Virus record (IMG/VR): IMGVR_UViG_3300027906_000085
Location: 1-30,565 of that record
DNA: 30,565 nt
Reading direction: 5' to 3' (one strand)
From: a virus
The notes under the pieces are model-generated. The model was not told where the DNA came from and ran no database searches. It saw only the letters and a program-made list of their open reading frames with translations. Within the stretch, counting starts at the first letter, position 1. Each line of letters opens with the position of its first letter. Shown here one piece after another: positions 3,009 to 18,912 of the stretch. The position numbers were made by a program, and so were the translations under genes.

Positions 3009-3673
3009 ATCCAGAATCAGAAATTCAGATAGATGAATTGATGGGGTCAAAAATATATACGATAGATAACGTATTTAAGTACCCAAAAAAATTAGACAGA
3101 TTTTTATTTAATCGAGAAAGCTTCTTAGTACAAGGTGAGCCTTGGTCATCCAATGGACATAGGTATATTAAGAAAAGATATGCAGACTGGATTGATAAAT
3201 CTTGTCCAATAGTTGCTGTAGCACAAAAATTATGTCAACAGAATGTAGGTAATCATGGTGGCTTTTCAACAAATGTAGATGCGTTCATGTCTGGACCATT
3301 CAATGAGTTTGAAACAAAGTATCTCTGGCCGCATTTAGATAACGGTTATACACTTATCGTTTACTTCAATCACGAAGATGAAAACGGTACTAACCTATAT
3401 CACCCAAAGCTAAAAGAGGAAGAGTGGTTCCAGAAGTTAATGACAGATACACCACTTGGTAAAGATCCATGGATACCAAAGAAACATGTTGAGCTACTAC
3501 ACACCTTAAAGCCTAAATATAATCGAGCAGTTTTATTTGACGGTGCAAAGTTTCCACATGGAGCTGCCATAGTCAATGAACACTATTACTTCGACACTGA
3601 AACCTACCCAGAAATGAGGAAAAATTTATGTTTTTTCTTCTACCCAGATGATAATGACAAAAAAGAAAACTAA
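2996..3673 (+). CDS. 2OG-Fe(II) oxygenase-like protein 1
   Basis: A 225-residue protein with the layout of a double-stranded beta-helix 2-oxoglutarate/Fe(II) dioxygenase. An HxD pair lies in WPHLDNGYTLIVYFN (His113, Asp115). A distal histidine follows RAVLFDGAKFPHGA (His188), and Arg208 in MRKNLCFFF could bind the 2-oxoglutarate carboxylate. The substrate cannot be read from the sequence; protein, nucleobase or small-molecule hydroxylation are all possible. ATG at 2996 is chosen, overlapping the endonuclease stop by 13 bases; a TTG in the same frame lies at 2987. It is the first of three adjacent oxygenase-like genes with overlapping ends, so they are probably co-translated. The motif arrangement is clear, but overall sequence is too divergent for me to name a family precisely. 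Confidence 0.72.
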   Translation: MWEINPESEIQIDELMGSKIYTIDNVFKYPKKLDRFLFNRESFLVQGEPWSSNGHRYIKKRYADWIDKSCPIVAVAQKLCQQNVGNHGGFSTNVDAFMSGPFNEFETKYLWPHLDNGYTLIVYFNHEDENGTNLYHPKLKEEEWFQKLMTDTPLGKDPWIPKKHVELLHTLKPKYNRAVLFDGAKFPHGAAIVNEHYYFDTETYPEMRKNLCFFFYPDDNDKKEN

Positions 3674-4208
3674 AGCAGCAGACATTAAAGTAGTTGATAA
3701 CTGGCTGCCAACTTCAGAATTTGTAGTACTAAAAGATATGTTTACCAGTACAGAAACAGGCTGGTTCATTGTCAATGGTATTGCAGATAATTCAGAGACT
3801 ATGAAAACTCTGAACCCATTAGATAACTATATGTTTGCTCATATGGTTTATCACAACTACGTGCCATACTCAAATCATTTCCAAAAGATTAAGGAAATAA
3901 TTGAGCCTCCTATGCAGGAACTGTTGGGTCATGACTTTAGAACAATAGTAAGAATCAAAGTTAACCTATACCCACGTACTCATGAAGTAGTAAAGCATCC
4001 ATGGCACACAGATTCTCATCACATAGAAGGACTTAAGGGTTTACTTCTAGGAATAAACACATGTGATGGATATACAGGATTTGCTGATGGTACTGAGATT
4101 GATTCAGTAGAAAACAGAGCATTATTCTTTGACTCTACAGAAAGACATCATTCAACCTCATGTTCAAATGCAAGTTACAGACTGAACATGAATATTAATT
4201 ATGTATAA
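3648..4208 (+). CDS. 2OG-Fe(II) oxygenase-like protein 2
   Basis: A 186-residue protein similar in plan to the 2OG-Fe(II) oxygenase proteins common in cyanophages. Counting from the ATG at 3654, HPWHTDSHH provides the HxD pair (His118, Asp120), preceded by RIKVNLYPR. TCDGYTGFADGTEI forms the expected central strands, ENRALFFDSTERHHS gives the distal histidine (165 or 166), and SYRLNMNINYV supplies the carboxylate-binding arginine (Arg176). The N-terminus is lysine-rich (MTKKKTKAADIK). Two ATGs, 3648 and 3654, are possible and neither has a strong ribosome binding site; both overlap the preceding gene. It differs strongly from its neighbours, so the trio looks like an assembled set rather than a recent tandem duplication. 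Substrate unknown. Confidence 0.78.
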   Translation: MIMTKKKTKAADIKVVDNWLPTSEFVVLKDMFTSTETGWFIVNGIADNSETMKTLNPLDNYMFAHMVYHNYVPYSNHFQKIKEIIEPPMQELLGHDFRTIVRIKVNLYPRTHEVVKHPWHTDSHHIEGLKGLLLGINTCDGYTGFADGTEIDSVENRALFFDSTERHHSTSCSNASYRLNMNINYV

Positions 4209-4821
4209 AATATTTGATATGTTTTCGGTACCTTTATACAGATCAATACTGCGTGAAGATACCAGTGCTTTAAATAAGTACAAAGAAAATATCTGTGATC
4301 AGGGGGAGGGGTCATTTATGAGTAACGAGTTCCCTCCTCGTTTACTAGAACATCCAGACTTGAAACATATCAAGGATGGAATTATGACTCACTTCCATAC
4401 ATTTATGTATGAAGCTTTGGGAGTTGGTCCAGAAACAGATGCAATATTCACTACCTCTTGGTTAGCTGCGATAGAGAAAGGAGGTTACGTACACTCGCAT
4501 AATCATGCTAACTGTTGGTTCTCTGGGTTACTTTATTTTGATGATGATTATACAAAATCAGTACCCTTACATTTGAAAGATCCAAATACTTGTCAAAGTA
4601 TTATCAATGTTAATACCAGAAACTATAACCTTGGCTATCCAGTAACTATTCAACCAGAGCCAAACTTATTAATATTTTTCCCTAGCTATATAGTTCATCA
4701 AAGTGAACCACAAAAGGAAGATAAGAAAAGATGGTCGCTTGCATTTAATTTTTACCCTAGAGGAAAGATTGGAGAAGAACTTACAGACAGTTACTTTGAT
4801 ACAAGATGGCTGAGTTTATAA
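4201..4821 (+). CDS. 2OG-Fe(II) oxygenase-like protein 3 (PF13759-like)
   Basis: A 206-residue protein with the pattern of the putative 2OG-Fe(II) oxygenase family Pfam PF13759. TTSWLAAIEKGGYVHSHNH leads into WFSGLLYF, matching the family's His-x-His before a Ser-Gly strand (His98, His100, His102). A Pro-rich strand ending FFPSYIVHQSEP gives the distal histidine (His166), and RWSLAFNFYPRG gives the arginine (Arg177). The N-terminal FSVPLYRSIL opening is also typical of this family, whose members often start with a 'F-x-x-P-(I/L)' strand. It overlaps the previous gene by 8 bases and the primase gene by 16, which places all three oxygenases in one translational unit with the replisome genes. 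Substrate unknown. Confidence 0.8.
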   Translation: MYKIFDMFSVPLYRSILREDTSALNKYKENICDQGEGSFMSNEFPPRLLEHPDLKHIKDGIMTHFHTFMYEALGVGPETDAIFTTSWLAAIEKGGYVHSHNHANCWFSGLLYFDDDYTKSVPLHLKDPNTCQSIINVNTRNYNLGYPVTIQPEPNLLIFFPSYIVHQSEPQKEDKKRWSLAFNFYPRGKIGEELTDSYFDTRWLSL

Positions 4822-6359
4822 GACATGAGCCATGTGAAGTATGTGGCTCATCAGATGCAAAGGCAATATACGACGACGGAAATACATATTGCTTTAGTTG
4901 TCAAAACCTTACGACACAAGATAATCACAATCACATGCCCACCAATGTTCAATTCACAGGATCAGCCCAAAGGCTGCATAAACGAAACATCAGTGAATCA
5001 ACCTGTCAACACTACAAAGTCTACAGGGACGGAGAATACTTACGCTTCCCTTATTACAGCAGTGACAGAACACTTCAAGGATTTAAAACAAAAACAAAAT
5101 TAAAAGACTTTAAGTATGAAGGTAATAATACTGACACTCTTTTTGGTCAGTCTCTTATTCCTTCTACTGGCAAACGCCTTATGGTCTACGAAGGCGAGCT
5201 TGATGCACTATCGGGCTGGGAGGCTTACCCAAACTGGGCGCATATCTCACTTCCTCATGGAGCTGCGTCAGCTAAAAAGGATATACAAAAACAACTTCAG
5301 CTTTTTCAAGGTTATGAAGAAATTATCCTTTTCTTCGATAAAGACCAAGCCGGTAAGCAAGCGACGGAATCAGTTGCTGCTCTTTTACCGTCTGGCAAAG
5401 TTAAGATTGCACATTTACCAGATCCGTATAAGGATGCTTCTGACGCATTGCAAAATAACGATGCTGAAGCAATCAGGAAAGCTATTTGGAATGCTTCTCC
5501 CTACCAACCGGATGGAATTGTAGATGGTCAATCATTACTAGAAGTAGTCACCAACCCTAGTCCACCATGCGACTTTGAATATCCATTTGCAGGGTTGCAA
5601 AGACTAACCCATGGATGCAGATTCGGAGAACTCACTGTAATCAGTGCAGGCACAGGACAAGGGAAATCAACCCTGACAAGGCAGTTGGCGACTCACTTTT
5701 TAGACCAAAACGAGCGTGTAGGTTATATAGCTCTGGAGGAATCAAATAGAAGAACAGCTTTAGGACTAATGTCTGTAGCTACTAGTCAAGCATTACATCT
5801 TGGAGAACACACCAAGGATACTTTACAAAAAGCATATGACAAAACCCTCAAAAAATGGAATCTCTTCCTCTATGACCACTTCGGCAGTGCTGACCCTGAT
5901 ATTATCTACAGTCGCATTGAGTATATGGCGCTTGCGCTCGAAACGAAAATCATCTTCCTCGACCACTTATCCATATTAATTTCTGGATTAGACGGAGATG
6001 AGAGAAAAATGATCGACACCACCATGACTAAGCTAAGAAGTTTAGTTGAACGAACTGGAATAAAACTATTCCTTGTATCTCATTTACGTAGAACACAAAC
6101 AGATAAGAACCATGAAGAAGGCGCACGAGTAACTCTAGGTCAACTTAGAGGTAGCGCAGCAATTTCTCAGCTTGCAGATGAAGTATGGGGACTCGAAAGA
6201 AACCAACAAACTGAAGCTGTAGACCAGACAATCTTACGTGTTCTAAAGAATAGATACTCAGGTGAAGTAGGTGTCGCATGTCAACTTAAATACAACAAAG
6301 AAACGTGTAAATACGATGAAACTACAGAGCCAATTTTCGATCCCGGAACAGACTTCTGA
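4806..6359 (+). CDS. Primase-helicase (T7 gp4-like)
   Basis: A bifunctional replisome protein that unwinds the fork and makes RNA primers; 517 residues against 566 in T7. It contains, in order, an N-terminal zinc-binding module (Cys10, Cys13, Cys29, Cys32), a TOPRIM primase core with EGELDA (Glu129, Glu131) and FFDKDQAGKQA (Asp178, Asp180), KDASD near residue 209, and a RecA-like helicase domain with Walker A AGTGQGKST (about 281-289), IIFLDHLSIL as the Walker B strand, and LRGSAAISQLADEVW late in the domain. The C-terminus is acidic and ends PGTDF, like the T7 gp4 tail that docks on the DNA polymerase. Because the zinc module is intact, this is the full-length primase-competent form. ATG at 4806 lies in the end of the oxygenase gene. 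Confidence 0.96.
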   Translation: MAEFIRHEPCEVCGSSDAKAIYDDGNTYCFSCQNLTTQDNHNHMPTNVQFTGSAQRLHKRNISESTCQHYKVYRDGEYLRFPYYSSDRTLQGFKTKTKLKDFKYEGNNTDTLFGQSLIPSTGKRLMVYEGELDALSGWEAYPNWAHISLPHGAASAKKDIQKQLQLFQGYEEIILFFDKDQAGKQATESVAALLPSGKVKIAHLPDPYKDASDALQNNDAEAIRKAIWNASPYQPDGIVDGQSLLEVVTNPSPPCDFEYPFAGLQRLTHGCRFGELTVISAGTGQGKSTLTRQLATHFLDQNERVGYIALEESNRRTALGLMSVATSQALHLGEHTKDTLQKAYDKTLKKWNLFLYDHFGSADPDIIYSRIEYMALALETKIIFLDHLSILISGLDGDERKMIDTTMTKLRSLVERTGIKLFLVSHLRRTQTDKNHEEGARVTLGQLRGSAAISQLADEVWGLERNQQTEAVDQTILRVLKNRYSGEVGVACQLKYNKETCKYDETTEPIFDPGTDF

Positions 6360-6453
6360 TCTGAAAAAACCAAACCCACCTTCAAAACAAGCTAAAAAGA
6401 AAGCAAAGTTTAAGGATAAAACTTATGTCGGAAAGCCAAATGCTCGTATTTGA
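6316..6453 (+). CDS. Possible small basic protein, unassigned
   Basis: A 45-residue open frame that spans the short space between primase-helicase and DNA polymerase and overlaps both. Its second half is strongly basic and lysine-rich (KQAKKKAKFKDKTYVGK) with a proline run before it. Within the 65 bases not used by other genes the frame stays open, which weakly favours a real gene. No ribosome binding site stands out upstream of the ATG at 6316; an in-frame ATG also exists at 6271. I recognise no family. It could equally be a chance frame in the leader that carries the Shine-Dalgarno sequence of the polymerase gene. Confidence 0.3.
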   Translation: MKLQSQFSIPEQTSDLKKPNPPSKQAKKKAKFKDKTYVGKPNARI

Positions 6454-6958
6454 CTGCGAAACTGACGGACTATTACATGACGTTTCTACAATACACTGCA
6501 TTGCCATCTACGATTCCCAAAAGGAAGAGACCCACGTATTTAATCATCAAGGTGGTGACTGCTACCCGATCACGGAAGGTTTGCATATGCTTACCGAAGC
6601 TGATGTTATCGTTGGGCACAATATCATTAATTTTGATATACCTGTTTTGCGGAAAACTTATTCTTGGTTTCAGCCTAGTGGGACTGTTCTTGATACTCTT
6701 GTCCTATCTCGTATGTACCATCCGAATATGATGGATATAGATAAGAGAAGGAACGTACCAAGGATGCCATTACAACTATATGGTAGGCATTCCTTAGAAG
6801 CTTATGGATACAGATTAGGTGAATATAAAGGAGAGTTTGGAAAGACCACCGACTGGAAAGAGTGGTCACAAGAAATGCAAGATTATTGCGTACAAGACGT
6901 AAACGTTACCACCAAATTATGCGAACACTTCCGCCCTTACATGATGCGGATCGGTTAG
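6425..6958 (+). CDS. DNA polymerase, 3'-5' exonuclease part (N-terminal fragment of a split T7-like Pol)
   Basis: A 177-residue ORF carrying the proofreading domain of a family A T7-type DNA polymerase. All exonuclease metal ligands are present: Asp10 and Glu12 in VFDCETDG (T7 Asp5, Glu7), Asp71 in INFDIP (T7 Asp65), and Asp158 in YCVQDVNVT (T7 Asp174). TLVLSRMYHPN and SLEAYGYRLGEYKGEF match T7 closely. A good Shine-Dalgarno sequence (AAGGA at 6412-6416) precedes ATG 6425. The frame ends at TAG 6956-6958 just where the polymerase domain should begin, and the rest of the enzyme continues in another frame. This is either a genuine two-subunit polymerase, a programmed -1 shift, or a frameshift mutation or assembly error. 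Confidence 0.93.
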   Translation: MSESQMLVFDCETDGLLHDVSTIHCIAIYDSQKEETHVFNHQGGDCYPITEGLHMLTEADVIVGHNIINFDIPVLRKTYSWFQPSGTVLDTLVLSRMYHPNMMDIDKRRNVPRMPLQLYGRHSLEAYGYRLGEYKGEFGKTTDWKEWSQEMQDYCVQDVNVTTKLCEHFRPYMMRIG

Positions 6959-8175
6959 AGCACCGAGTCGCTGAAATATTAACTGAACAAGAGATACATG
7001 GATGGACATTTAATGAACAAAAAGCTCAGCAACTTGAGTCATCTCTCCGAAGAGAGATGGAAGAAACTCAAGGAGTACTTCGAGAACAATTCCCTTTCGT
7101 TGCAGGATCGTTGTTCACTCCTAAACGAGATAACGCAACACAAGGATATAGAGAAGGATGTGAAATACAACGAATAAAGGAGTTTAACCCAACATCACGA
7201 GACCACATAGCATGGATTCTGAAGACCCATTTCAAAGTCAAATTGAGCAAGACCACAGCGACTGGGAAACCAATTATCGACGAGACTACATTGACGGAGA
7301 TAGATATTCCCTTCTCCAAACTATGTGCGAAATGTTTGACGATAAAGAAAAAGCTTGGAATGATATCCGAAGGCGTGAACGCATGGAACAGGCTTGTTAC
7401 GAGTGAAGGTAGGATTCACCACCATTGCTCAGTTTCTACTAACACATTTAGATGTGCTCATAGAAAACCAAACTTAGCTCAGGTCCCTGCCGATAAGGAG
7501 TTTAGAGAATTATTCACAGCCAGTCCCGAGCTAGTAATGGTTGGAGCTGACTTAAGCGGAATTGAATTAAGAATGCTTGCCCACTACCTTGGAAGGTACG
7601 ACGGCGGTAGATATGCAGATATCCTCCTTAATGATGATATTCATCAAGTTAATGCTGACAAGATTGGTATTACTAGAAGACAAGTTAAGACTGTCACCTA
7701 TGCCTTCCTTTATGGAGCTGGCAACGAAAAAATTGGAACCTCATACGACAACACCCTAAAACCAAATGATGCAAAAAAGAAAGGAAAGGAAATACGAGAA
7801 GCTTTTGTTGCTGCGATCGAAGGACTCTCTGACTTATTGGGAGCGGTTTCAACTAAGTCTGCTAACGGGTGGCTCTTAGCTATTGATGGCAGAAGAGTTT
7901 TAGTTGATAGTCCTCACAAAGGATTAAATTATTTACTTCAGTGTTCGGCTGGAATTGTGGCTAAGAGATGGATGGTTATTGCACATGATGATTGTGAAGC
8001 TAACCAACTCGCCTTTGTACATGATGAACTTCAATATGAGACAAAGCCAGAAAATGCCGAACGATTAATGAAACATTTAGAAAAATCAGCAGTATTAGCT
8101 GGAGAATACTACCAATTACGTTGTCCAATAGCAGCCGAAGCAAAACAAGGGCTCTCATGGGCAGACGTACATTAA
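6919..8175 (+). CDS. DNA polymerase, polymerase part (C-terminal fragment of a split T7-like Pol)
   Basis: A 418-residue ORF with the palm, fingers and thumb of a T7-type family A polymerase. Homology starts at LEHRVAEILTEQEIHGW (T7 IEHRAAWLLAKQERNGF). Motif A is GADLSGIELRMLAHYL (catalytic Asp codon at 7549), motif B is VKTVTYAFLYGAGNEKIG (Lys 7687, Tyr 7699 at the E. coli 762 position, Tyr 7711), and motif C is FVHDELQ (Asp 8023). The thioredoxin-binding insertion of T7 (about 76 residues) is almost absent: only about 18 residues separate the SLFTP and FNPTSRDHI landmarks. ATG 6919 overlaps the exonuclease ORF by 40 bases; a GTG at 6862 would extend it, but those residues are not polymerase-like. 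No good Shine-Dalgarno site precedes 6919. Confidence 0.93.
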   Translation: MRTLPPLHDADRLEHRVAEILTEQEIHGWTFNEQKAQQLESSLRREMEETQGVLREQFPFVAGSLFTPKRDNATQGYREGCEIQRIKEFNPTSRDHIAWILKTHFKVKLSKTTATGKPIIDETTLTEIDIPFSKLCAKCLTIKKKLGMISEGVNAWNRLVTSEGRIHHHCSVSTNTFRCAHRKPNLAQVPADKEFRELFTASPELVMVGADLSGIELRMLAHYLGRYDGGRYADILLNDDIHQVNADKIGITRRQVKTVTYAFLYGAGNEKIGTSYDNTLKPNDAKKKGKEIREAFVAAIEGLSDLLGAVSTKSANGWLLAIDGRRVLVDSPHKGLNYLLQCSAGIVAKRWMVIAHDDCEANQLAFVHDELQYETKPENAERLMKHLEKSAVLAGEYYQLRCPIAAEAKQGLSWADVH

Positions 8176-8178
8176 ATT

Positions 8179-8925
8179 ATGAAATTATTAATAGATGCAG
8201 ACTACATAGTATATAAATGCTGTGCAGCAGCAGAAACAGAGATGGATTTCGGAGATGACGTTATAGTTGTTACTTCTAATTTCTCTGACGCTATGAAATG
8301 CGTAAAAAGAGATTTAGATCGAATCCAAAACGACTTAGGATCATTTGACGATGAGATGATCTTATTCTTTACAAGCCCTAATAATTTTAGGAAAAAAATT
8401 CTGCCCGATTACAAAGGTCATCGACAGAGAAAAAAGCCCTGTGGATTCAAAAGGGTCATACAGGAACTTAAGAAACAATACAGAGTTATCCTCAAAGATA
8501 CACTCGAAGCTGATGATTCTATAGGCATTTACGCTACAAAATATCCCGGAAACATTATTGTCTCTCCAGATAAGGACATGAGACAGATTCCCGGGAAACT
8601 ATATGACTTTAAAGAAACTGTAGAGATTACTTCAGACGAAGGAGCAAGATGGCATCTGATTCAGAGCATGGCAGGCGATAACACTGACGGTTACGCAGGA
8701 GTTCCCGGGATAGGAGTTAAGAAAGCAGAGAAAATCTTTGAAGAAAAAGGATACACATGGAAAGCAGTAGTTGAAACCTTTGTAGAGAAAGAGATGACTG
8801 AAGAGGATGCATTAACTAATGCAAGACTCGCAAGGATACTAACTACAAGTGACTACGACCATGACACTAAAGAACCAATACTTTGGACACCCCCAAATGA
8901 ATACGAAATTAAACGAAGGTCCTGA
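8179..8925 (+). CDS. 5'-3' exonuclease (T7 gp6-like, FEN family)
   Basis: The enzyme degrades host DNA and removes RNA primers. It has 248 residues. The FEN/5' nuclease acidic site is visible as LLIDADYI (Asp6, Asp8), LEADDSIG (Glu110, Asp112, Asp113), VSPDKDMRQIPG (Asp131, Asp133) and QSMAGDNTDGYAGVPGIG (Asp167, Asp170), the last running into the helix-3-turn-helix GVPGIGVKKAEKI that grips duplex DNA. The basic stretch LPDYKGHRQRKKPCGFKR fits the helical arch. It follows the polymerase gene by three bases, the T7 order gp5-gp6. The next gene starts inside its 3' end. Confidence 0.95.
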   Translation: MKLLIDADYIVYKCCAAAETEMDFGDDVIVVTSNFSDAMKCVKRDLDRIQNDLGSFDDEMILFFTSPNNFRKKILPDYKGHRQRKKPCGFKRVIQELKKQYRVILKDTLEADDSIGIYATKYPGNIIVSPDKDMRQIPGKLYDFKETVEITSDEGARWHLIQSMAGDNTDGYAGVPGIGVKKAEKIFEEKGYTWKAVVETFVEKEMTEEDALTNARLARILTTSDYDHDTKEPILWTPPNEYEIKRRS

Positions 8926-9112
8926 ATACTACCAGAGAGGGAACATAGAAGTATGGGATTTCATTAGAGATCAATCCCTGAACTATCACCTTGGAAATGT
9001 AATCAAATACGTATGTCGTGCTGGATATAAAGATGACGACTTAAAAGATTTAAAAAAAGCTGCCCATTATTTACTCAATGAAATCGAATCAAGAACAAGC
9101 AAGGGAATTTAG
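8897..9112 (+). CDS. DUF3310 protein (T7 gp1.7-like)
   Basis: A 71-residue protein with the full DUF3310 signature: GPEYYQRGNIEVWDFIRDQ, then LNYHLGNVIKYVCRAGYKDD and DLKKAAHYLLNEIE. In T7, gp1.7 has been described as a nucleotide kinase acting on dTMP and dGMP; most DUF3310 proteins are of unproven function. Here it sits directly before a MazG-like pyrophosphohydrolase and the ribonucleotide reductase genes, which supports a role in nucleotide supply. ATG 8897 is preferred because homology begins shortly after it; an in-frame ATG at 8849 would add 16 residues lying wholly inside the exonuclease gene. It overlaps the exonuclease by 29 bases and the next gene by 35. Confidence 0.88.
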   Translation: MNTKLNEGPEYYQRGNIEVWDFIRDQSLNYHLGNVIKYVCRAGYKDDDLKDLKKAAHYLLNEIESRTSKGI

Positions 9113-9452
9113 AAAGAAATACAACATTCAAAGTTCAGATAGTAAACCAGTTAGAACCTATCAACGTGACTTAATTAGAGAAGAGTTCATTGAGTTTATT
9201 GAAGCTGAAGGTATGTTGTTTAGAGAATCAGAGCGTTACAAGGAGGAATGTCTTAAAGAGTTAGCCGACCTTGTGTATGTCTGCTATCAATACGCTGCCA
9301 ATATGGGTTGGGATCTTGATAGAGCATTAGCACTAATACATGAAAGCAATCTTTCCAAGTTAGGTGAAGATGGCAAACCAATACTAAGAGAAGACGGAAA
9401 GATATTAAAAGGACCTAACTATAAAAAACCAAACTTACATTCACTCATCTAA
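9078..9452 (+). CDS. MazG-like nucleotide pyrophosphohydrolase
   Basis: A 124-residue all-alpha protein of the MazG / phosphoribosyl-ATP pyrophosphohydrolase-like superfamily. The metal-binding EExxE motif is in LIREEFIEFIEAEG (Glu35, Glu36, Glu39), followed by KELADLVYV with the ExxD pair (Glu61, Asp64). GWDLDRALALIHESNLSK is the family's C-terminal helix, and the end (GEDGKPILREDGKILKGPN) is the usual phage MazG-like tail. Such enzymes cleave NTPs or dNTPs to monophosphates and pyrophosphate; the substrate here is unknown. Context between DUF3310 and ribonucleotide reductase suggests nucleotide pool adjustment. Its stop is directly followed by the ATG of the reductase gene. Confidence 0.87.
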   Translation: MKSNQEQAREFRKKYNIQSSDSKPVRTYQRDLIREEFIEFIEAEGMLFRESERYKEECLKELADLVYVCYQYAANMGWDLDRALALIHESNLSKLGEDGKPILREDGKILKGPNYKKPNLHSLI

Positions 9453-10844
9453 ATGGCTAACAAAATTGCAAGGACTGGTCGAGTCCAATCATGGATTGAA
9501 AATCCTACTACCCGTCTACCCGTGTCATGCACAATCTTCAAAGTTGAAGATTCAATGGAAGGAACTGATGGAATCGAAGCGAGCTGGCGATTTGTGTCGC
9601 ATGCTCTCAGATATGGAGCAGGAGTTGCGGTCCACTTGTCGGACCTTAGACCCCAAGGAACAAAAACAATTAAGGGAACTGATACTCTCGTTGCATCAGG
9701 ACCCGTCTCATTCGCAAAAATTTACTCAACATTAAATGAAATTCTTAGAAGAGGTGGCACCTATAAAAATGGTGCGGTGGTTGCCCATCTTGATATTAAC
9801 CACGCCGATATTATTGACTTCGTGCAAGTCCCCAGAGAAGAACTCCCATGGATTAAACGATGTGTTAACCTCACCCCAGACCTCTGGCGTGATTCAGAAA
9901 CTGGAACAAAGGAAGCAATTATTAGAGGGATTGCTAGAGGAGACATCTGGCTCAGTAAAATAAAACATGATAGACATGGCAAACGGATCAGATCGAACGT
10001 CTGTCTTGAGGTTTACTTGCCCTCACGAGGCACATGCTTACTCCAACATATCAATCTCGGTGCCTGTAGAATCGGCGACTTACGCCCGGCTTTCCGTGAA
10101 GGCATGTCCGAGTTGTGCGACCTCCATGGCAGGACAGGTGTTGGAGAGTCTGGAGAGTATCTCAAACCAAAACATGACAGACAGGTAGGACTAGGAATGC
10201 TTGGCTTAGCCAACTTCTTAGCTCAAAACAATATTACATATGCCGAGTTCGGTAAGGCGCTGAAAGCAACTAATGATGCTCAGCCTTACGAAGGGTACGC
10301 TGGGTTAGCTGCTCGTGAACTTCTACTCGGCATACAAGAAGCAGCTAACATAGCTCGAGAGAACAACATGGAAAGAGCATTCGCTATAGCTCCAACTGCT
10401 AGTTGTTCTTACAGAAGTAGAGACCTTAACGGTAATACAAGTACACCAGAAATAGCACCTCCTATTAGCAGAGTTGTTGATAGAGATTCAGGTACGTTTG
10501 GTGTTGAGCAAGTTAAATATGGCGACGTCGAGATCGCATCTGAAGTCGGATGGGAGAGTTATAAATTAGTAGCAGATCAGATAATGATCATGCTCGATAG
10601 AACAGGATTGCTTCATGGCTATAGCTTCAACTCTTGGAGTGACATGGTGACATACGATGAGGCATTTATAGAAGAGTGGTTGAAATCACCACAAACTTCT
10701 CTCTATTATTCCTTACAAGTAATGAGTGATACGCAGGATAAGACAGATGCTTACGCAGCACTAGAAGATACCTCAGTTGAAGATTACTTAGCAGAAATAA
10801 TGAGTAATAAACCAGATGAAATCGGATGTGATTGTCAGCAATGA
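9453..10844 (+). CDS. Ribonucleotide reductase alpha subunit, compact class I type
   Basis: The catalytic subunit reduces ribonucleotides to deoxyribonucleotides; 463 residues against about 760 for E. coli NrdA. The thiyl-radical cysteine lies in SNVCLEVYLP (Cys184, matching E. coli NLCLE Cys439). The substrate-reducing pair is Cys26 (RLPVSCTIF) and Cys195 (GTCLLQHINLGAC). The phosphate loop is IAPTASCSY (312-320). A tyrosine pair (Tyr418-Tyr419, SLYYSLQV) matches E. coli Tyr730-Tyr731, the radical-transfer dyad of class I enzymes, and the C-terminus carries a Cys-x-Cys (459, 461) for re-reduction. No N-terminal ATP-cone is present, so overall activity control by ATP/dATP is probably lost. 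The adjacent beta-like gene supports class I rather than the class II label often given to such short cyanophage proteins. Confidence 0.92.
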   Translation: MANKIARTGRVQSWIENPTTRLPVSCTIFKVEDSMEGTDGIEASWRFVSHALRYGAGVAVHLSDLRPQGTKTIKGTDTLVASGPVSFAKIYSTLNEILRRGGTYKNGAVVAHLDINHADIIDFVQVPREELPWIKRCVNLTPDLWRDSETGTKEAIIRGIARGDIWLSKIKHDRHGKRIRSNVCLEVYLPSRGTCLLQHINLGACRIGDLRPAFREGMSELCDLHGRTGVGESGEYLKPKHDRQVGLGMLGLANFLAQNNITYAEFGKALKATNDAQPYEGYAGLAARELLLGIQEAANIARENNMERAFAIAPTASCSYRSRDLNGNTSTPEIAPPISRVVDRDSGTFGVEQVKYGDVEIASEVGWESYKLVADQIMIMLDRTGLLHGYSFNSWSDMVTYDEAFIEEWLKSPQTSLYYSLQVMSDTQDKTDAYAALEDTSVEDYLAEIMSNKPDEIGCDCQQ

Positions 10845-11554
10845 ACCCATATATAAAACTACTGTCCCGGAAAAGATCTTGGACACCCGTACAAACATCT
10901 AAAGGAGAGCTAAAAGATGGAGCAGAAGAAACCATCTTCCGTTGTCTTGCAATACGCCATATGGAGCTACCAGTTGGTACCTTCATTACGGAAGCACTTG
11001 ATAAGAATGTTCCCGACTCTGCCAGAGCACTTCTAGAGTCGAACGTTAAGGACGAGATCAAACATGACCTTGCTCTTAGCTACATCACCAAAGCACACGG
11101 CGTAAATGAAAAAGCTGAAGCCGAAGCATTACGCTTACGTGCAGCGTGGGAGGAACATCCAGATCACACAATATTAAAAGCACTAGTAGCAGAGAGAGCA
11201 ATCTTCTTTGTGATACTACCTTTCTTCAGATTCAATGGTGACGCAGGCTTGCGCACAATTTCGGCTGATATCTCGAGGGATGAACAAGTCCACGTGGCTT
11301 GTAACTCCTTGGTATCACTGGAGTTAGGACTAAAGCCTAGCCAATCATTAGACAAGCTAAGAAAGGCAACTATTAATTGGATAATGGAACCACTTAAGAA
11401 TAGTGCCGATAGATATTTGGACAAAAAATTTTGGCTAGATGCGAGCGATCGACTTATGTACGAAGGCAAAGCACCAGAATTTTCTCAGACCAAGGCAGCA
11501 AGAATGCCTGCATTTTTTGAACACTCGAATGTCAATCTCCCTCAATACTCTTAA
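10841..11554 (+). CDS. Ribonucleotide reductase beta subunit (NrdB-like, ferritin-like)
   Basis: The radical-generating partner of the preceding alpha subunit; 237 residues, much shorter than E. coli NrdB (about 375). Metal ligands of the R2 fold can be traced: KDEIKHD (Glu72, His75), VAERAIFF (Glu118), and SRDEQVH (Glu148, His151). The first ligand, Asp84 in E. coli, is most likely Glu42 in RHMELP. The residue four after His75, where E. coli has radical Tyr122, is Leu79; a tyrosine lies two residues later (Tyr81). A Glu first ligand and a missing radical tyrosine resemble class Ic (Mn/Fe) enzymes. ATG 10841 overlaps the alpha stop as ATGA, typical of coupled subunit translation; a TTG lies at 10832. 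Confidence 0.87.
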   Translation: MNPYIKLLSRKRSWTPVQTSKGELKDGAEETIFRCLAIRHMELPVGTFITEALDKNVPDSARALLESNVKDEIKHDLALSYITKAHGVNEKAEAEALRLRAAWEEHPDHTILKALVAERAIFFVILPFFRFNGDAGLRTISADISRDEQVHVACNSLVSLELGLKPSQSLDKLRKATINWIMEPLKNSADRYLDKKFWLDASDRLMYEGKAPEFSQTKAARMPAFFEHSNVNLPQYS

Positions 11555-11714
11555 GCTGCACAACGACAGACTTGATGAGTTATTAAAGAAGTTAGAACAG
11601 AACTTCGGGTGGAAACCTATCCATCCCAAAGAACCAATCGAATCAATTATGTATAGAGCTGGACAAGCCAGTGTAATTGATTACATCAAATCAATAGAAG
11701 AGGACGAAATCTAA
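11529..11714 (+). CDS. Small conserved-looking protein, unassigned
   Basis: A 61-residue protein with an amphipathic helical first half (TLKLHNDRLDELLKKLEQNF), then GWKPIHPKEPIESIMYRAG, and an acidic end SIEEDEI. ATG 11529 lies in the 3' end of the beta subunit gene (26-base overlap), and the stop overlaps the next gene's ATG by one base. The frame stays open upstream to 11439, but those residues are a shadow of the reductase gene. The overlap pattern on both sides argues that it is a real gene. I do not recognise the family; it sits where T7 has small virion or accessory genes before the portal. Confidence 0.65.
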   Translation: MSISLNTLKLHNDRLDELLKKLEQNFGWKPIHPKEPIESIMYRAGQASVIDYIKSIEEDEI

Positions 11715-11977
11715 TGTGTTTACCCGGAGGAGGCACGCCGCCGCCACCACCCCCATTACCACCAGCACCCCCACCACCACTACCTCCTGCTCCTACAGCA
11801 CCACCACCTGAGCCAGTTCAGAAAGAAGATATGAATGCTAAGGTGAGAAAAGCTAAGCAGGATCGTGGTAAGAAAAATCAGGGTCAATATAAAAGTGGAA
11901 CAGGTGACCAAAGAGTTGACCTAGATCCAAATGTGAACCCACAGAATAACTCCGGTAAAAGCGGAGGACTTAATTAA
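11714..11977 (+). CDS. Proline-rich small protein, possible virion protein (gp7.3 position)
   Basis: An 87-residue protein that begins Met-Cys-Leu-Pro followed by GGG and a proline/alanine tract of about 30 residues, then a basic, Gly/Asn-rich half (KVRKAKQDRGKKNQGQYKSG) and the end SGKSGGLN. T7 gp7.3, a small virion protein encoded directly before the portal, ends SSGGGINI, so the position and the C-terminal SGG-x-N motif agree. The Met-Cys-x-Pro start recurs in two other putative virion proteins in this window (18957 and 23509). A role in virion assembly or tail attachment is inferred from this, not shown. It abuts the portal gene with a one-base overlap. Confidence 0.68.
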   Translation: MCLPGGGTPPPPPPLPPAPPPPLPPAPTAPPPEPVQKEDMNAKVRKAKQDRGKKNQGQYKSGTGDQRVDLDPNVNPQNNSGKSGGLN

Positions 11978-13548
11978 TGTTAGCTCGTGAGAGATACAAT
12001 CAACTGGTAACAGATCGAAGACAATTCCTAGACAAAGCCGTTGATTGTTCAAAGCTCACGTTACCTTATTTAATTCAAGACGATACATCTTCAAGACCAA
12101 CACACGAGACTCTCAATATACCTTGGCAATCAGTTGGTTCTAAATGTGTAGTAGGACTTGCGGCAAAACTAATGCTCGCAATCCTACCTCCACAAGGAAC
12201 CTTCTTTAAGTTTCAGGTAAGAGAAGATAAGTTAGGTGAAGAGTTACCAACAGAAGCGAGGTCAGAACTTGACCTTTCTTTATCCAAGATGGAACGGATG
12301 GTCATGGACTATGTTGCTGCATCAAATGACAGAGTAGTAATACATCAAGCACTTAAACATTTAATTGTTGGTGGTAATGCTCTTTTATATATGGGTAAAG
12401 ATGGGATTAAGAACTACCCACTTAATAGGTATGTCGTCAATAGAGATGGAAATGGTAACGTCCTAGAAATAGTTACAAAGGAATTGATAAGTCGAGATGT
12501 ACTAGGTTTTGATGTCCCGAAGACACCACCTAACACAGGTATCGACGAAACAAAAGGTACACATACTGATGATGTCGAAGTTTACACGTGCGTGAAACTA
12601 GAGAACGGCAGATGGGTATGGTATCAAGAAGTAGAAGATAAGATAATCCCCGGCTCACGTAGTACAGCTCCTAAGAATGCAAGTCCATGGTTAGTCCTGA
12701 CTTTCAATTCAGTAGACGGAGAACAGTATGGACGTGGAAGAGTAGAAGAGTTCCTTGGTGATCTCAAATCTCTTGAAGGATTATCTCAAGCATTAGTAGA
12801 AGGAGCTGCGGCTGCGGCTAAGGTAATATTCCTAGTCAGTCCATCTTCAACTACAAAGCCAGCCACTATTGCAAAGGCTGGTAACGGAGCCATAGTTCAG
12901 GGTAGAGAAGAAGACGTAAAAGTTGTACAGGTAGGTAAGACTGCTGACTTCTCTACAGCTGCTAACGTGGCACAAACAATAGAGAGAAGATTGCTTGAAG
13001 CTTTCCTAGTTATGAACGTTAGGAATGCAGAAAGAGTAACAGCAGAAGAAGTTAGGCTAACTCAGTTAGAACTAGAGCAACAGCTCGGTGGCATCTTCAG
13101 TTTGTTAACTACATCTTTCCTTATACCTTATTTAGATAGAACTTTATTAGTACTACAAAGAACTAATGAACTACCTAAGTTACCTAAAGATATTATTAGA
13201 CCAGCAATTGTAGCCGGTGTTAATGCTTTAGGAAGAGGGCAAGACAGAGAAGCTTTGACAATGTTTATGGGAACTGTTGCACAGACAATAGGACCAGAAG
13301 CATTAGCAAGATTTATAAATCCTTTAGAAGCAATCAAACGTCTTGCAGCTGCACAAGGTATTGATGTGTTGAATCTTGTGAAGACTGAACAAGAACTACA
13401 AGGTGAGAAACAAGATCAGATGCAACAACAGCAACAGCAAACTCTCTTAGAACAAGCTGGTCAATTTGCTAATTCAAAGTTAGCTGATACAGAAAACATG
13501 CGAGGCATGGTAGAAGGACAACAACCACCACAACAACCTAATGAGTGA
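11977..13548 (+). CDS. Portal (head-tail connector) protein, T7 gp8-like
   Basis: The dodecameric portal through which DNA is packaged and ejected; 523 residues, close to T7 gp8 (536). Recognisable stretches are VGSKCVVGLAAKLMLAILPP (T7 has a similar LASKLMLALFP), ASPWLVLTFNSVDGEQYGRG, and RNAERVTAEEVRLTQLELEQ, the conserved 'ERVTAEEVR' region of podoviral portals. The C-terminus is glutamine-rich (a CAA/CAG tract near 13420-13450). It follows the proline-rich protein by overlap and precedes the scaffold, as in T7. The scaffold ATG lies eight bases before its end. Confidence 0.96.
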   Translation: MLARERYNQLVTDRRQFLDKAVDCSKLTLPYLIQDDTSSRPTHETLNIPWQSVGSKCVVGLAAKLMLAILPPQGTFFKFQVREDKLGEELPTEARSELDLSLSKMERMVMDYVAASNDRVVIHQALKHLIVGGNALLYMGKDGIKNYPLNRYVVNRDGNGNVLEIVTKELISRDVLGFDVPKTPPNTGIDETKGTHTDDVEVYTCVKLENGRWVWYQEVEDKIIPGSRSTAPKNASPWLVLTFNSVDGEQYGRGRVEEFLGDLKSLEGLSQALVEGAAAAAKVIFLVSPSSTTKPATIAKAGNGAIVQGREEDVKVVQVGKTADFSTAANVAQTIERRLLEAFLVMNVRNAERVTAEEVRLTQLELEQQLGGIFSLLTTSFLIPYLDRTLLVLQRTNELPKLPKDIIRPAIVAGVNALGRGQDREALTMFMGTVAQTIGPEALARFINPLEAIKRLAAAQGIDVLNLVKTEQELQGEKQDQMQQQQQQTLLEQAGQFANSKLADTENMRGMVEGQQPPQQPNE

Positions 13549-14332
13549 AACCTATTCATATGACAATACTCCTGAAACAGAAGTACTGACCGAAGAGGAA
13601 CAGGACTCTCTGAAAGTAGGAGAGGAGTTAGTAGAACAACAAGAAGGACTACTAGCTGGTAAATATAAAAATGCTGAAGATTTAGAAGCAGCTTACTTAT
13701 CGTTACAACAGAAACTTGGACAACAAGAAGAAGGAACTGAAGAAGAAGGAGACGAAGGATATACAGAAGAAGAAGAAAGTGATGAGGAGGTATCTGAAGA
13801 TGCTCCTGCGATCAGTTTGATCAATGAAGCATCTGCTGAATACTATGCCAATGATGGAGAACTTAGTGAGGACACAATAAATAAGTTCTCTGAGATGAGC
13901 AGCCAAGATTTGGTTAATGCTTACATGGAAATCCAAAGAAATAATCCACAAGCTCAACAGTCTTATGAGATGTCTGATGCAGAAGTTAACAGTGTTAAGA
14001 ATGCAGCAGGCGGAGAAGCTAATTACGACAGAGTAGTTCAGTGGGCTGCGGATAATCTTCCAGATTCACAGGTCAATGCATTCGATTCAGTAGTTGATAC
14101 TGGTAATCCAGCAGCTATTGGCATCGCTTTCCAAGGTCTTCAATCCGCATTCAATGAATCGAATGGATATGAAGGTCGAATGTTACAAGGCAGAGCTCCA
14201 TCATCTGCTGGAGAAACTTTTAGATCTCAAGCAGAACTTGTAGCAGCAATGGGAGATCCACGCTATGAAAACGATCCAGCTTACAGAGCTGATGTCGTAG
14301 CAAAATTAGAACAATCAGATTTAAACTTTTAA
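13541..14332 (+). CDS. Capsid assembly (scaffolding) protein, T7 gp9-like
   Basis: A 263-residue acidic protein that would direct prohead assembly and leave before packaging. The N-terminal third is very Glu/Asp-rich (EEQDSLKVGEELVEQQEG, then a long E/D tract around residues 65-90). The middle is helical (DLVNAYMEIQRNNPQAQQ), and the C-terminal part (PRYENDPAYRADVVAKLEQS) resembles the end of podoviral scaffolds that binds the capsid. Identification rests on position between portal and capsid, acidic composition and this C-terminal pattern. Length is slightly below T7 gp9 (307). The next gene starts three bases later and is not structural, so the host-manipulation cassette interrupts the T7 scaffold-capsid order here. 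Confidence 0.92.
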   Translation: MSETYSYDNTPETEVLTEEEQDSLKVGEELVEQQEGLLAGKYKNAEDLEAAYLSLQQKLGQQEEGTEEEGDEGYTEEEESDEEVSEDAPAISLINEASAEYYANDGELSEDTINKFSEMSSQDLVNAYMEIQRNNPQAQQSYEMSDAEVNSVKNAAGGEANYDRVVQWAADNLPDSQVNAFDSVVDTGNPAAIGIAFQGLQSAFNESNGYEGRMLQGRAPSSAGETFRSQAELVAAMGDPRYENDPAYRADVVAKLEQSDLNF

Positions 14333-14335
14333 GTC

Positions 14336-14857
14336 ATGTACCAACCCTCTTACTGGGTCCATGGCAATATAAAATTTCCAGAAAAGGAAATCAATCAAGT
14401 CGTTAGTGAGTTAAAAAGACTTGGCAAGGAGCTGATTGTACGTGGATACCCAGTCATCTCTTCTTATTATTTCAAGCACTTTAGTAGACCAGATAAAATT
14501 TGGTCAGATAAATACGGAGAAATAATCAAGGACATTACTAAGAACCTTGGATTATATTCAACTACTAAGTATGACTTTGAGTATTGGTCACAGCTTTACA
14601 CTAACGGTACAGAACACAAAGCCCACCATCACGGATTAGGCGATAGCATATCATTTGTTCATTTTATTAAACCTGACAAAGAAAAATCTTTTAAATTTCT
14701 AACTAACGAGAGAGAAGAATGGACACCACCAGAACAAAATGAAGGTGATCTTATTTACTTTCCAGCTTGGTGTTGGCACCAAGTTTCACCAGTTATAACA
14801 GACGAAAGATTAGTAGTTGCAGGGAATATAAAGATTACATATATAGATGAAAACTAG
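14336..14857 (+). CDS. 2OG-Fe(II) oxygenase-like protein 4
   Basis: A 173-residue protein with the C-terminal oxygenase pattern: YWSQLYTNGTEHKAHHHG (His97-His99 region, first metal ligands), DSISFVHFIKP as a core strand, GDLIYFPAWCWHQVSPV with the distal histidine (His148), and ITDERLVVAGNIKIT with a candidate 2-oxoglutarate-binding arginine (Arg158). The clear acidic partner of an HxD motif is missing, so activity is less certain than for protein 2. It begins three bases after the scaffold stop, and its last codons overlap the hli start, so scaffold, this gene and hli may be read from one transcript. Substrate unknown. Confidence 0.65.
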   Translation: MYQPSYWVHGNIKFPEKEINQVVSELKRLGKELIVRGYPVISSYYFKHFSRPDKIWSDKYGEIIKDITKNLGLYSTTKYDFEYWSQLYTNGTEHKAHHHGLGDSISFVHFIKPDKEKSFKFLTNEREEWTPPEQNEGDLIYFPAWCWHQVSPVITDERLVVAGNIKITYIDEN

Positions 14858-15068
14858 AGATTTAGACAATTTACTTTACAACGAATACCCTTACGAACCA
14901 CCAATAAGAGTTATGTCACACAACGCAGATTGCGATGGCAATCATTCACACAATCCAATTATGACACCCGAAGCAGAAAGATTTAATGGCTGGTTAGCCA
15001 TGCTCGGTTTCGTAGCAGCCGTAGGCGCTTACGTAACAACAGGACAAATCATCCCCGGAATATTTTAA
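14847..15068 (+). CDS. High-light-inducible (Hli) protein
   Basis: A 73-residue single-helix chlorophyll-binding stress protein that would sit in the host thylakoid and protect photosystem II during infection. The Hli signature is clear: AERFNGWLAMLGFVAAVGAY at residues 43-62, containing the chlorophyll-binding ExxNGxxAMxGF core, followed by VTTGQIIPG. It has one transmembrane helix. The N-terminal extension is unusual, with a His/Asp/Cys cluster (MSHNADCDGNHSHN, residues 23-36) just before the helix. Its start overlaps the oxygenase stop. A terminator-like hairpin follows within ten bases, which may set its expression apart from psbA. Confidence 0.94.
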   Translation: MKTRDLDNLLYNEYPYEPPIRVMSHNADCDGNHSHNPIMTPEAERFNGWLAMLGFVAAVGAYVTTGQIIPGIF

Positions 15069-15074
15069 AGAACA

Positions 15075-15114
15075 GGCGGCTCGAATCGTATCGTACACCG
15101 CCACACTTTTTTTT
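15075..15114 (+). terminator. Probable intrinsic terminator after hli
   Basis: A GGCGG (15075-15079) and CCGCC (15098-15102) stem with an 18-base loop that can form a further CGA/TCG pairing, followed four bases later by eight T residues (15107-15114). The loop is long for a classic terminator, so strength is uncertain. It would partly separate the hli transcript from the porin-like gene and psbA. Confidence 0.55.
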
Positions 15115-15129
15115 ATTCTTAAATATTTA

Positions 15130-15483
15130 ATGAAAAATTTAATTGTACTTGCAGTAGCAGCATCAGCATCACCAGTACTAGCTGGTCCTTACGTGAACGT
15201 AGAGACTAGATCTAACTTCACTGGTTCTGATTATCAAGCAACAGCATCTGACCTACACTTAGGTTGGGAAGGAGAAGCTAAAGATCTTTCTTATTACATA
15301 CAAGGTGGTAAGACAATCAAAGCTGACGATGGTAAAGACTCAGCCTCTAACTGGTCTGGTAAGACAGGAGCTAGTTTCCCTGTTTCAGAAAAGTTAAAAG
15401 TTTATGGTGAGCTAAACTTCGCACAAGTCGAAGGCGCTGACAATAACTGGGGTACAAAATTAGGAACTAAGTTTACTTTCTAA
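15130..15483 (+). CDS. Secreted beta-rich, porin-like protein, function unknown
   Basis: A 117-residue protein with a clear signal peptide: MKN, a hydrophobic run [13 protein letters not shown] and a cleavage site VLA|G near residue 18. The mature part starts [12 protein letters not shown] and alternates polar and hydrophobic residues in beta-strand fashion ([25 protein letters not shown]), with glycines at turns. It ends KLGTKFTF with a terminal Phe, matching the outer-membrane beta-barrel end signal recognised by BAM. About 99 mature residues suit only a small or multimeric barrel. I recall similar 'GPYVNVE' proteins in marine cyanophages, without assigned function. It ends in TAATG overlap with psbA, so the two are translationally linked. 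Outer-membrane location is inferred. Confidence 0.7.
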
Positions 15484-17459: not shown

Positions 17460-17468
17460 TAGCTACGT

Positions 17469-17520
17469 CCGTTCATCCCTAAAGGGACGCATGAAACCAC
17501 AGCATGGAACGGGGTTGTGG
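17469..17520 (+). ncRNA. Candidate structured RNA: three-way junction with pseudoknot
   Basis: P1 is CCGTTC (17469-17474) with GAACGG (17507-17512), six pairs. Inside it are P2, TCCC (17476-17479) with GGGA (17484-17487) and loop TAAA, and P3, CATG (17490-17493) with CATG (17503-17506). CCACA in the P3 loop (17497-17501) can pair with TGTGG (17516-17520) just after P1, giving a pseudoknot. The CGTTCATCCC...GGGACG...GGAACG framework resembles what I remember of the glnA / Downstream-peptide (glutamine) riboswitch motifs of cyanobacteria, but the conserved purine-rich segment I expect there is not present, so this is only a lead. Confidence 0.45.
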
Positions 17521-17575
17521 TATATGGAGAAACTCATGACAGTTACTTTCGTATATCGTGGCATTGCTTACACAA

Positions 17576-17622
17576 GAGTAATCAAATAGGTGATCTCGGG
17601 GAGGTTCGATTCCTCCCTACTC
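17576..17622 (+). ncRNA. Candidate tRNA-like element without an anticodon arm
   Basis: GAGTA (17576-17580) pairs with TACTC (17618-17622) like an acceptor stem. Inside are a D-arm-like hairpin, ATCA-AATAGG-TGAT (17581-17594), a four-base link, and a perfect six-pair T-arm, GGGAGG / CCTCCC (17599-17604 and 17612-17617), whose seven-base loop TTCGATT (17605-17611) exactly fits the tRNA T-loop consensus. No anticodon arm and no encoded CCA are present, so it is not a complete tRNA. It may be a tRNA mimic, a processing signal, or a remnant of a host tRNA 3' end. Confidence 0.45.
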
Positions 17623-17766
17623 AATTTGGCTAAAGCCCTCCGAGGAGGATACCTTTATGCCGTCGACGGTGGGAAAAGACCACAAATCTCAGTGAGTCCA
17701 TATGAGACTCGCATAATTCTAACGTTAGGAACGACAATATATACCCTTACATTTTAAGAAAAAATC

Positions 17767-18912
17767 ATGGCTCATCAGAGTTCAGATTTAACTACCTCAC
17801 TAACACGTCAAGGTCAGTTAAACTCAGCCGGTGACGCACGTGCCCTTTACTTGAAATTGTTTAGTGGAGAGATGTTCAAAGGATTCCAGCACGAGTCAAT
17901 TGCTCGTAACATGGTAATGAAGAGAACTCTTAAGAATGGAAAATCTCTACAGTTTATCTACACAGGTAGAACAACTGCTGAGTTCCATACTCCCGGAAAT
18001 TCAATTTTAGGTAACAGCGACGGCGCACCTCCAGTTGCAGAAAAAACAATAACTTGCGACGACCTATTAATTTCATCAGCTTTCGTTTATGAGCTAGATG
18101 AGACACTTGCACATTACGAATTGAGGGGAGAAATCTCCAAGAAGATCGGCTACGCATTAGCAGAGAAGTATGACAGACTCATCTTCAGAGCTGTAGCTAA
18201 AGGTGCAAGACAAGCTTCTCCAGTAGCTAAGACAAACTTTAAGGAACCCGGTGGAACACAGATCAGAGTTGGTACAACAACTAATGATTCTGATGCTTAC
18301 AACGCAGGCAACTTAGTTAATGCTTTCTACGACGCAGCAGCAGCACTAGACGAGAAAGGTGTATCTTCTTCAGGAAGATGTGCAGTATTAAACCCTCGTC
18401 AATACTACGCTTTGATCCAAGACATTGGTTCAAACGGACTTATCAATAGAGACGTACAAGGTACAGCATTACAGTCTGGAAACGGAATCATTGAAATTGC
18501 AGGCATCAAGATCTACAAGTCAATGAACATCCCATTCCTTGCTAAGCATGGTGTAGCTTATGCCGGAACTACAGGTGAGACTTCTCCTTCTAACTTAGGA
18601 GACCACGTTGGTACAGCTCTAGCTGACGGACGTAAGTCTGTAACAGGACTAAACAACAACTACGGTAACAGCACAGACTTTGCGAAATCTTGTGGATTAA
18701 TTTTCCAGAAGGAAGCAGCAGCAGTTGTAGAAGCTATTGGTCCTCAGGTCCAAGTAACTTCAGGCGACGTTTCAGTTGTTTATCAAGGTGACGTAATCCT
18801 TGGAAGACTAGCTATGGGTGCAGATTTCCTTAACCCAGCAGCAGCCGTTGAACTATATGTTGGAGCAACAGCACCAGCAGCGTTCGGTACTACATACCCA
18901 GCGAACGGTTAA
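17767..18912 (+). CDS. Major capsid protein, T7 gp10-like
   Basis: The main head protein, HK97 fold by family; 381 residues against 345 for T7 gp10A. The N-terminus, SAGDARALYLKLFSGEMFKG, aligns with T7 AAGDKLALFLKVFGGEVLTA, and the next parts (IARNMVMKRTLKNGKSLQFI, TGRTTAEFHTPGN) match T7 in order. SGRCAVLNPRQYYALIQDIG corresponds to the T7 stretch before the penton and axial domains. The start at 17767 has a weak ribosome binding region (AAGAAAAAA), surprising for the most abundant protein, so the upstream structured leader may matter for stability or translation. A strong terminator begins 16 bases after the stop, leaving no room for a T7-style 10B frameshift extension. Confidence 0.98.
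   Translation: MAHQSSDLTTSLTRQGQLNSAGDARALYLKLFSGEMFKGFQHESIARNMVMKRTLKNGKSLQFIYTGRTTAEFHTPGNSILGNSDGAPPVAEKTITCDDLLISSAFVYELDETLAHYELRGEISKKIGYALAEKYDRLIFRAVAKGARQASPVAKTNFKEPGGTQIRVGTTTNDSDAYNAGNLVNAFYDAAAALDEKGVSSSGRCAVLNPRQYYALIQDIGSNGLINRDVQGTALQSGNGIIEIAGIKIYKSMNIPFLAKHGVAYAGTTGETSPSNLGDHVGTALADGRKSVTGLNNNYGNSTDFAKSCGLIFQKEAAAVVEAIGPQVQVTSGDVSVVYQGDVILGRLAMGADFLNPAAAVELYVGATAPAAFGTTYPANG

Follow-up and report, generated by a model that had tools for sequence, protein, structure and literature searches.

Known tRNA mimics and a counterpart upstream of a capsid gene

The tRNA elbow is what RNase P and RNase Z recognise, and from it they measure along the stacked acceptor and T helices, with a ruler of 12 bp (PMC11143913, PMC11693755). 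RNAs other than tRNAs can present the same features: in mascRNA and menRNA a T-arm and a reduced D-arm, two Gs of which form the elbow, direct RNase P and RNase Z to the place of cutting within a longer RNA (PMC11693755). Hairpins made of acceptor stem, T-stem and T-loop are cut efficiently by the RNase P RNA of E. coli, and RNase P also acts on two phage RNAs, M3 and C4 (PMC11143913). The subject of this report is a miniature tRNA-like element (TLE) that dispenses with the anticodon arm. It lies upstream of the capsid gene in 30,565 nucleotides of viral DNA (IMG/VR record IMGVR_UViG_3300027906_000085, positions 1 to 30,565; the whole stretch is called "the window" below), on the plus strand at 17576-17622, or to 17623 if a discriminator-like A is counted. 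Its structure is conserved and covaries in related phages, it keeps a fixed register with the leader of the capsid gene, and elements of the same architecture recur between genes of unrelated phages; on balance it is probably a minimal pre-tRNA mimic that serves as an intercistronic RNA-processing signal for host RNase P and/or RNase Z.

Four described systems invite comparison. MascRNA and menRNA (of the MALAT1 and NEAT1 long non-coding RNAs) share with the TLE the T-arm and the reduced D-arm whose loop Gs provide for the T-loop elbow; they keep a third stem-loop, however, and form the 3' end of a long non-coding RNA in animals, whereas the phage elements have no anticodon stem and lie in phage mRNA, between genes, in up to about 12 copies per genome, and their cleavage is presumptive. 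In tRNA punctuation (mitochondria; the tRNA clusters of phage T4) the elements likewise stand at gene boundaries, and relatives of the window's phage hold an intact tRNA in the slot of the TLE; most TLEs, by contrast, are not tRNAs and are unable to decode. Minimal RNase P substrates (AT1) and the M3 and C4 RNAs establish that acceptor stem, T-stem and T-loop suffice for cleavage (PMC11143913); AT1 is artificial and M3 and C4 are single RNAs, while TLEs constitute an intergenic series and have a miniature D-arm. The 3' tRNA-like structures of plant RNA viruses (turnip yellow mosaic virus type) are also viral RNA mimicking tRNA, but at genome 3' ends; TLEs are internal and belong to the transcripts of double-stranded DNA phages.

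Architecture of the element

The acceptor stem of the window TLE consists of 5 bp, formed by GAGTA (17576-17580) and TACTC (17618-17622), with the discriminator-like A at 17623; an RNase Z cut is predicted 3' of about 17623. Next comes a D-arm, ATCA (17581-17584) and TGAT (17591-17594) enclosing the loop AATAGG (17585-17590, its GG at 17589-17590), and then the T-arm (17599-17617), in which GGGAGG (17599-17604) and CCTCCC (17612-17617) make six pairs around the T-loop TTCGATT (17605-17611). Acceptor and T helices together amount to 11 bp. The 18 nt between the 5' acceptor strand and the T-stem are taken up by the D-hairpin. An original prediction, made from the sequence of the window, had described these three arms, with coordinates and pairings that are exact, and had pointed out the missing anticodon arm, whose place is indeed filled by the D-hairpin. 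It had also called the element intergenic, which calls for an amendment: the element is real, but its 5' part (acceptor strand and D-stem) overlaps the final codons of a 17-codon open reading frame (ORF; 17536-17589), the TAG stop codon of which (17587-17589) sits inside the D-loop.

An ordinary tRNA or transfer-messenger RNA (tmRNA) gene is ruled out: ARAGORN finds no tRNA or tmRNA in the window, an Rfam search of the window yields no tRNA match (RF00005) even at E values up to 10, and the anticodon arm is absent. A scanner that demands a T-loop GTTCRANYC, 11-12 uninterrupted acceptor/T pairs and a short D region with GG finds one match in the window, the element at 17576; it matches nothing in 2.9 Mb of mono-shuffled sequence, nor anything in 300 Markov-1 randomised copies of the window. 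(Its thresholds were picked after the first examples were known, so that these counts measure rarity and do not constitute a pre-registered test.) The folding energy of the surrounding 135-nt region, taken alone, is ordinary (z of -1.18); the evidence for the TLE lies in its architecture, conservation and covariation, and by these it exists as a tRNA-like architecture beyond chance.

Conservation and covariation

A capsid search combined with a search for the leader core (the conserved structured segment, beginning TTGGC, that follows the TLE) collected 204 sites. The first sorting gave 67 TLEs, 72 instances of another hairpin (ALT, taken up below) and 10 others; 64 unique TLE sequences from upstream of T7-like cyanophage capsid genes were used for the comparisons that follow. 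Four of the capsid-leader sites (L206, L208, L209 and L210) come from contigs filed under metagenome-assembled genomes of unrelated bacteria; these are probably mis-binned phage contigs.

The stem pairings, whose loss among relatives had been named in advance as evidence that would count against the element, are conserved. Each of the T-stem pairs 1-5 is formed in 98-100% of the TLEs, by several Watson-Crick types; over the whole T-arm 99.5% of alignment cells are paired, with compensatory changes in four of the six pairs. When the T-stem and leader helices of 35 representatives are taken together, 99.1% of cells are paired (90.4% in shuffled controls) and 42 are compensatory, against 8.9 in the shuffled controls, not one of 500 shuffles reaching 42. 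The acceptor was assessed by permutation because the MAFFT alignment (A1) does not align its 5' strand structurally: a perfect 5-bp acceptor in one fixed register is present in 36 of 60 mini-TLEs, where 1000 shuffled controls reach no more than 9; it comes in 10 distinct sequences, and most of the remaining acceptors pair 1-2 nt out of this register.

Dimensions are also maintained. The distance from the T-loop to the TTGG of the leader is 13 nt in 30 and 14 nt in 33 of the unique TLEs (the one left was re-anchored to 13), and the acceptor and T helices add up to 11-13 bp in most of them, although the split varies (5+6, 5+7, 6+5, 7/8+5). With 11 bp in the window and 13-14 nt to the leader, the elements have the approximately 12-bp acceptor/T ruler of the mascRNA type.

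The D-loop and the T-loop vary together. A D-loop GG is present in 21 of 22 TLEs with a TTCRA T-loop and in 4 of 29 with TGCRA (Fisher P of 2e-9, a value inflated by the relatedness of the compared sequences); the near-identical ATCGGTTAAGCGATC/TGCAAGT and ATCGGTTAGGCGATC/TTCGATT differ in both features at once. (A technical note: D-hairpin calling that tolerates G-U pairs was unstable, and the GG counts come from a Watson-Crick-only version; the four GG calls among the TGCRA TLEs and the one miss, L162, look by eye like miscalled hairpins, and in two of those four the GG falls in the acceptor strand once the stems are paired.) By sequence and co-variation, a T-loop and a D-loop GG able to make a mascRNA-type elbow are present; the joint variation of D-loop GG and UUCRA T-loop matches a tRNA elbow, and the two are predicted to be in contact in the TLE.

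What occupies the slot in related phages

At two sites (L091 and L124) the slot upstream of the capsid gene is occupied by a complete tRNA-Gly(UCC) that runs up to the leader core, its discriminator next to TTGGC; the L091 tRNA scores 70 bits against RF00005. At two others (L033 and L194) it holds degenerate tRNAs that score 31-32 bits. Judged by the slot, the TLE descends from a tRNA or is equivalent to one, so far as sequence can tell, and we infer that the direction would be from full tRNA-Gly through degenerate tRNA to mini-TLE. Of 21 genomes from the host genus, 18 contain sequence that matches most of the L124 tRNA at 77-79% identity, and in three of them (G003-G005) the match falls within a predicted tRNA.

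For the mini-TLE itself the genomes searched gave no such counterpart. When 41 genomes belonging to the genus of one Prochlorococcus single-cell genome were searched with a 65-nt TLE query, the best match was 19 nt of the T-arm, in one genome (E of 0.03), so that identity to the 3' part of a host tRNA over the length of an attachment core was not found; a covariance model built from actinophage TLEs only (R1; see below), run on 21 of the genus's genomes, detects no mini-TLE, which eliminates the chromosomes of those 21 as its source by this model. The suggestion that the element is a fragment of a host tRNA kept as an attachment site is accordingly disfavoured, and the TLE as an attachment-site relic is rejected: the best match in the 41 genomes is 19 nt long, and variation of the element takes the form of compensatory changes rather than of retained identity to host sequence.

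A wider class of phage elements

A blastn search with the window TLE produced many matches of low significance in Mycobacterium phages; read individually, those places show the TLE architecture. The Mycobacterium phage Send513 (record 28001-71547) has 12 TLEs on the coding strand, in an array at 10597-33333, nearly all of them starting 8-16 nt past a stop codon and most ending 40-59 nt before the next start; the Mycobacterium phage Cuke has 11 (2011-9390) and the Streptomyces phage Endor1 has 8 (10090-15199), these being counts per genome part scanned. All three sets lie between genes where checked, with a typical start some 9-16 nt past a stop codon and a few TLEs overlapping an annotated start or stop; the arrays are unannotated. 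OneUp and D_HF2_7 have one TLE each. The number expected in randomised sequence is 0.0. ARAGORN calls none of the TLEs tested, and Rfam has no family for these elements.

In 22 actinophage TLEs of equal length all 231 of 231 cells are paired, with a covariation of 0.916 (0.182 when shuffled); the T-loop core GGTTCGA and the D-loop GG are invariant, and most continue with AC (discriminator A, then C). Model R1 matches the T-arm of the window TLE (21.1 bits, E of 0.006; a local match) and also a TLE near the left end of P-SSP7, at 603-647. S-TIP37 has two more, at 986-1031 and 1441-1485, between early genes near its left end. A marine viral contig (L220) has three TLEs at gene boundaries (5469, 5856 and 6691), all inside a stretch of about 1.3 kb, and the same is seen in L221.

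There is about an even chance, in our estimate, that all of these belong to one undescribed class of intercistronic mini-TLEs (approximately 40-48 nt, no anticodon arm, an elbow and an 11-12-bp ruler) that punctuates the mRNAs of unrelated double-stranded DNA phages (T7-like cyanophages, several actinophage genera, other marine phages), turning the enzymes with which the host matures its tRNAs into a general mRNA cutter, to which some cyanophages would couple a glutamine riboswitch. The parts are known: recognition by RNase P and RNase Z, mimicry of the mascRNA type, and tRNA punctuation. A recurring phage class that lacks the anticodon arm and is placed serially between genes seems new, although priority is not established; a description of such phage elements was not found in the openly licensed PMC literature, which omits most subscription papers and preprints.

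A candidate processing signal, and its rivals

Intercistronic processing is favoured because exactly those determinants that RNase P and RNase Z read are kept in the TLE, while the anticodon arm is gone. The acceptor and T helices would stack to 11-12 bp, with the D-loop GG docking on the T-loop to create the elbow. Host RNase P would then cut at the 5' end of the TLE, before about 17576; alternatively or additionally, RNase Z would cut past the discriminator, at about 17623/17624. RNase P and RNase Z are both present in cyanobacteria. Cleavage would separate the psbA and short-peptide part of the transcript from the capsid message, whose 5' end would be defined at the structured leader, (A)UUUGGC...; an effect on capsid expression may follow. 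Recruitment of RNase P or tRNA enzymes that cleave the capsid leader was one of three options offered by the original prediction, and elbow, ruler, fixed leader distance and the tRNA-Gly in the slot make it the best supported of them, the cleavage itself being conjectural.

Several observations weigh against a processing signal. At about half of the sites the slot is filled by the ALT hairpin, which is not tRNA-like and has a constant distance of its own to TTGG (11-12 nt from the ALT core) and covarying stems; it may be another processing signal, or ALT and TLE may both dock on the leader. Many cyanophage TLEs have a UGCRA T-loop and no GG, which would make for a non-canonical elbow, and the 3' end of cyanophage TLEs is not RCCA-like. 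The RNase P RNA of cyanobacteria is not known to have the GGU with which RCCA pairs; that would fit the missing RCCA-like end in cyanophages and the partial one (A-C) in actinophages. The ALT hairpin and the TLE are mutually exclusive across sites. ALT, whose apex CACCTCAGAGTCGGA is near-invariant, stands immediately 5' of the leader TTGGC at L035, L061, L069 and some 70 loci more.

The rival that survives best makes the TLE a structural module of the capsid leader: its T-loop and elbow would dock on the leader core to make one folded, uncleaved 5' untranslated region that acts as a translation enhancer or as a shield against RNase E/J. It is kept alive, as an unlikely but serious competitor, because ALT hairpins fill the slot at a fixed distance; TLE and ALT alike stand at a strictly fixed distance from TTGGC, and the leader core is invariant over long stretches and occurs only before the capsid gene. 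Against docking, TLEs occur between unrelated genes with no leader core, both in actinophages and at the two early S-TIP37 positions, and in two phages a free-standing, complete tRNA-Gly fills the slot.

It is less likely again that cleavage is secondary, the TLE persisting afterwards as a stable cap-like 5' structure or 3' end, or as a tRNA decoy for EF-Tu, the CCA-adding enzyme or modification enzymes. Several tRNA-binding proteins read the T-loop and elbow, and the actinophage TLEs finish in a discriminator A followed by C; but arrays at gene boundaries suit punctuation better than a decoy acting in trans, and the cyanophage TLEs have no ACCA-like end. That the TLE is a functionless remnant, left by the decay of a phage tRNA-Gly gene or of an attachment site in a host tRNA, is very improbable, complete and degenerate tRNA-Gly in the slot and the resemblance of the L124 tRNA to host-genus sequence notwithstanding: it is already contradicted by the covarying stems, the compensatory T-stem and acceptor changes, D-loop/T-loop co-variation and constant ruler imply selection, and the host-genus genomes searched furnish neither a match of attachment-site length nor a mini-TLE.

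The surroundings of the capsid gene

The window is a fragment of a T7-like cyanophage, with genes (identified by Pfam) for RNA polymerase, connector, psbA, 2OG-Fe(II) oxygenase, capsid and nozzle. The major capsid protein gene, T7 gp10-like, is at 17767-18912 (PF21703, Gp10A-like, E of 2.5e-75), on the plus strand like the features upstream of it, which follow in the order glutamine-II riboswitch, 17-codon ORF, TLE and structured leader core. The riboswitch aptamer (glutamine-II, or downstream-peptide; 17467-17521) matches Rfam RF01704 with 54.6 bits, the gathering score being 33. It has been reported that peptide ORFs follow this riboswitch (PMC2864571), and here too it adjoins the TLE from upstream together with such an ORF; it is nevertheless a separate element, found at some TLE sites only. 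The 17-codon ORF, MTVTFVYRGIAYTRVIK, was read from the sequence and ends in TRVIK; relatives also show a short ORF with the identical ending. More speculatively, a ribosome terminating in the D-loop would melt the TLE, so that riboswitch-controlled translation of the peptide could modulate the cut.

The leader core (TTGGC...GATACC...GCCGTCGACGGTGGGAAAAGACCAC; 17626-17683) is conserved, has long invariant stretches and contains covarying helices. It stands directly upstream of a T7-like capsid gene in 201 of 204 copies, the other 3 having too little downstream sequence to place that gene. A repeated phage RNA polymerase promoter is an unlikely identity for its motif GCCGTCGACGGTGGGA, which has a single copy in the window and at most one per contig. 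Its centre is GTCGAC at 17662-17667, and nearly every variant of this centre (GTCTAGAC, GTCGAC, GTCATGAC, GTAATTAC) is self-complementary; an intramolecular hairpin was dropped, as it conflicts with a covarying GGC/GCC stem, and when that stem is paired a dimer, a protein site or a kissing loop is possible. The segment at 17671-17686 is GGGAAAAGACCACAA, in place of which many relatives have GGGATAGACCACAA; the segment appears to resemble GGGAGACCACAACGG, the start of the T7 gene 10 leader.

Implications

Phages must set unequal levels for the genes of one operon. If many of them use TLEs as cutting signals, processing by RNase P and RNase Z would be a layer of gene expression general to phages and overlooked by tRNA finders and Rfam. 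The elements would also be compact natural processing signals for engineering and, as natural minimal substrates selected in vivo, would lend themselves to probing what RNase P and RNase Z require. And the series found in a single slot (full tRNA-Gly, degenerate tRNA, mini-TLE) may be read as a rare record of a tRNA becoming a regulatory element.
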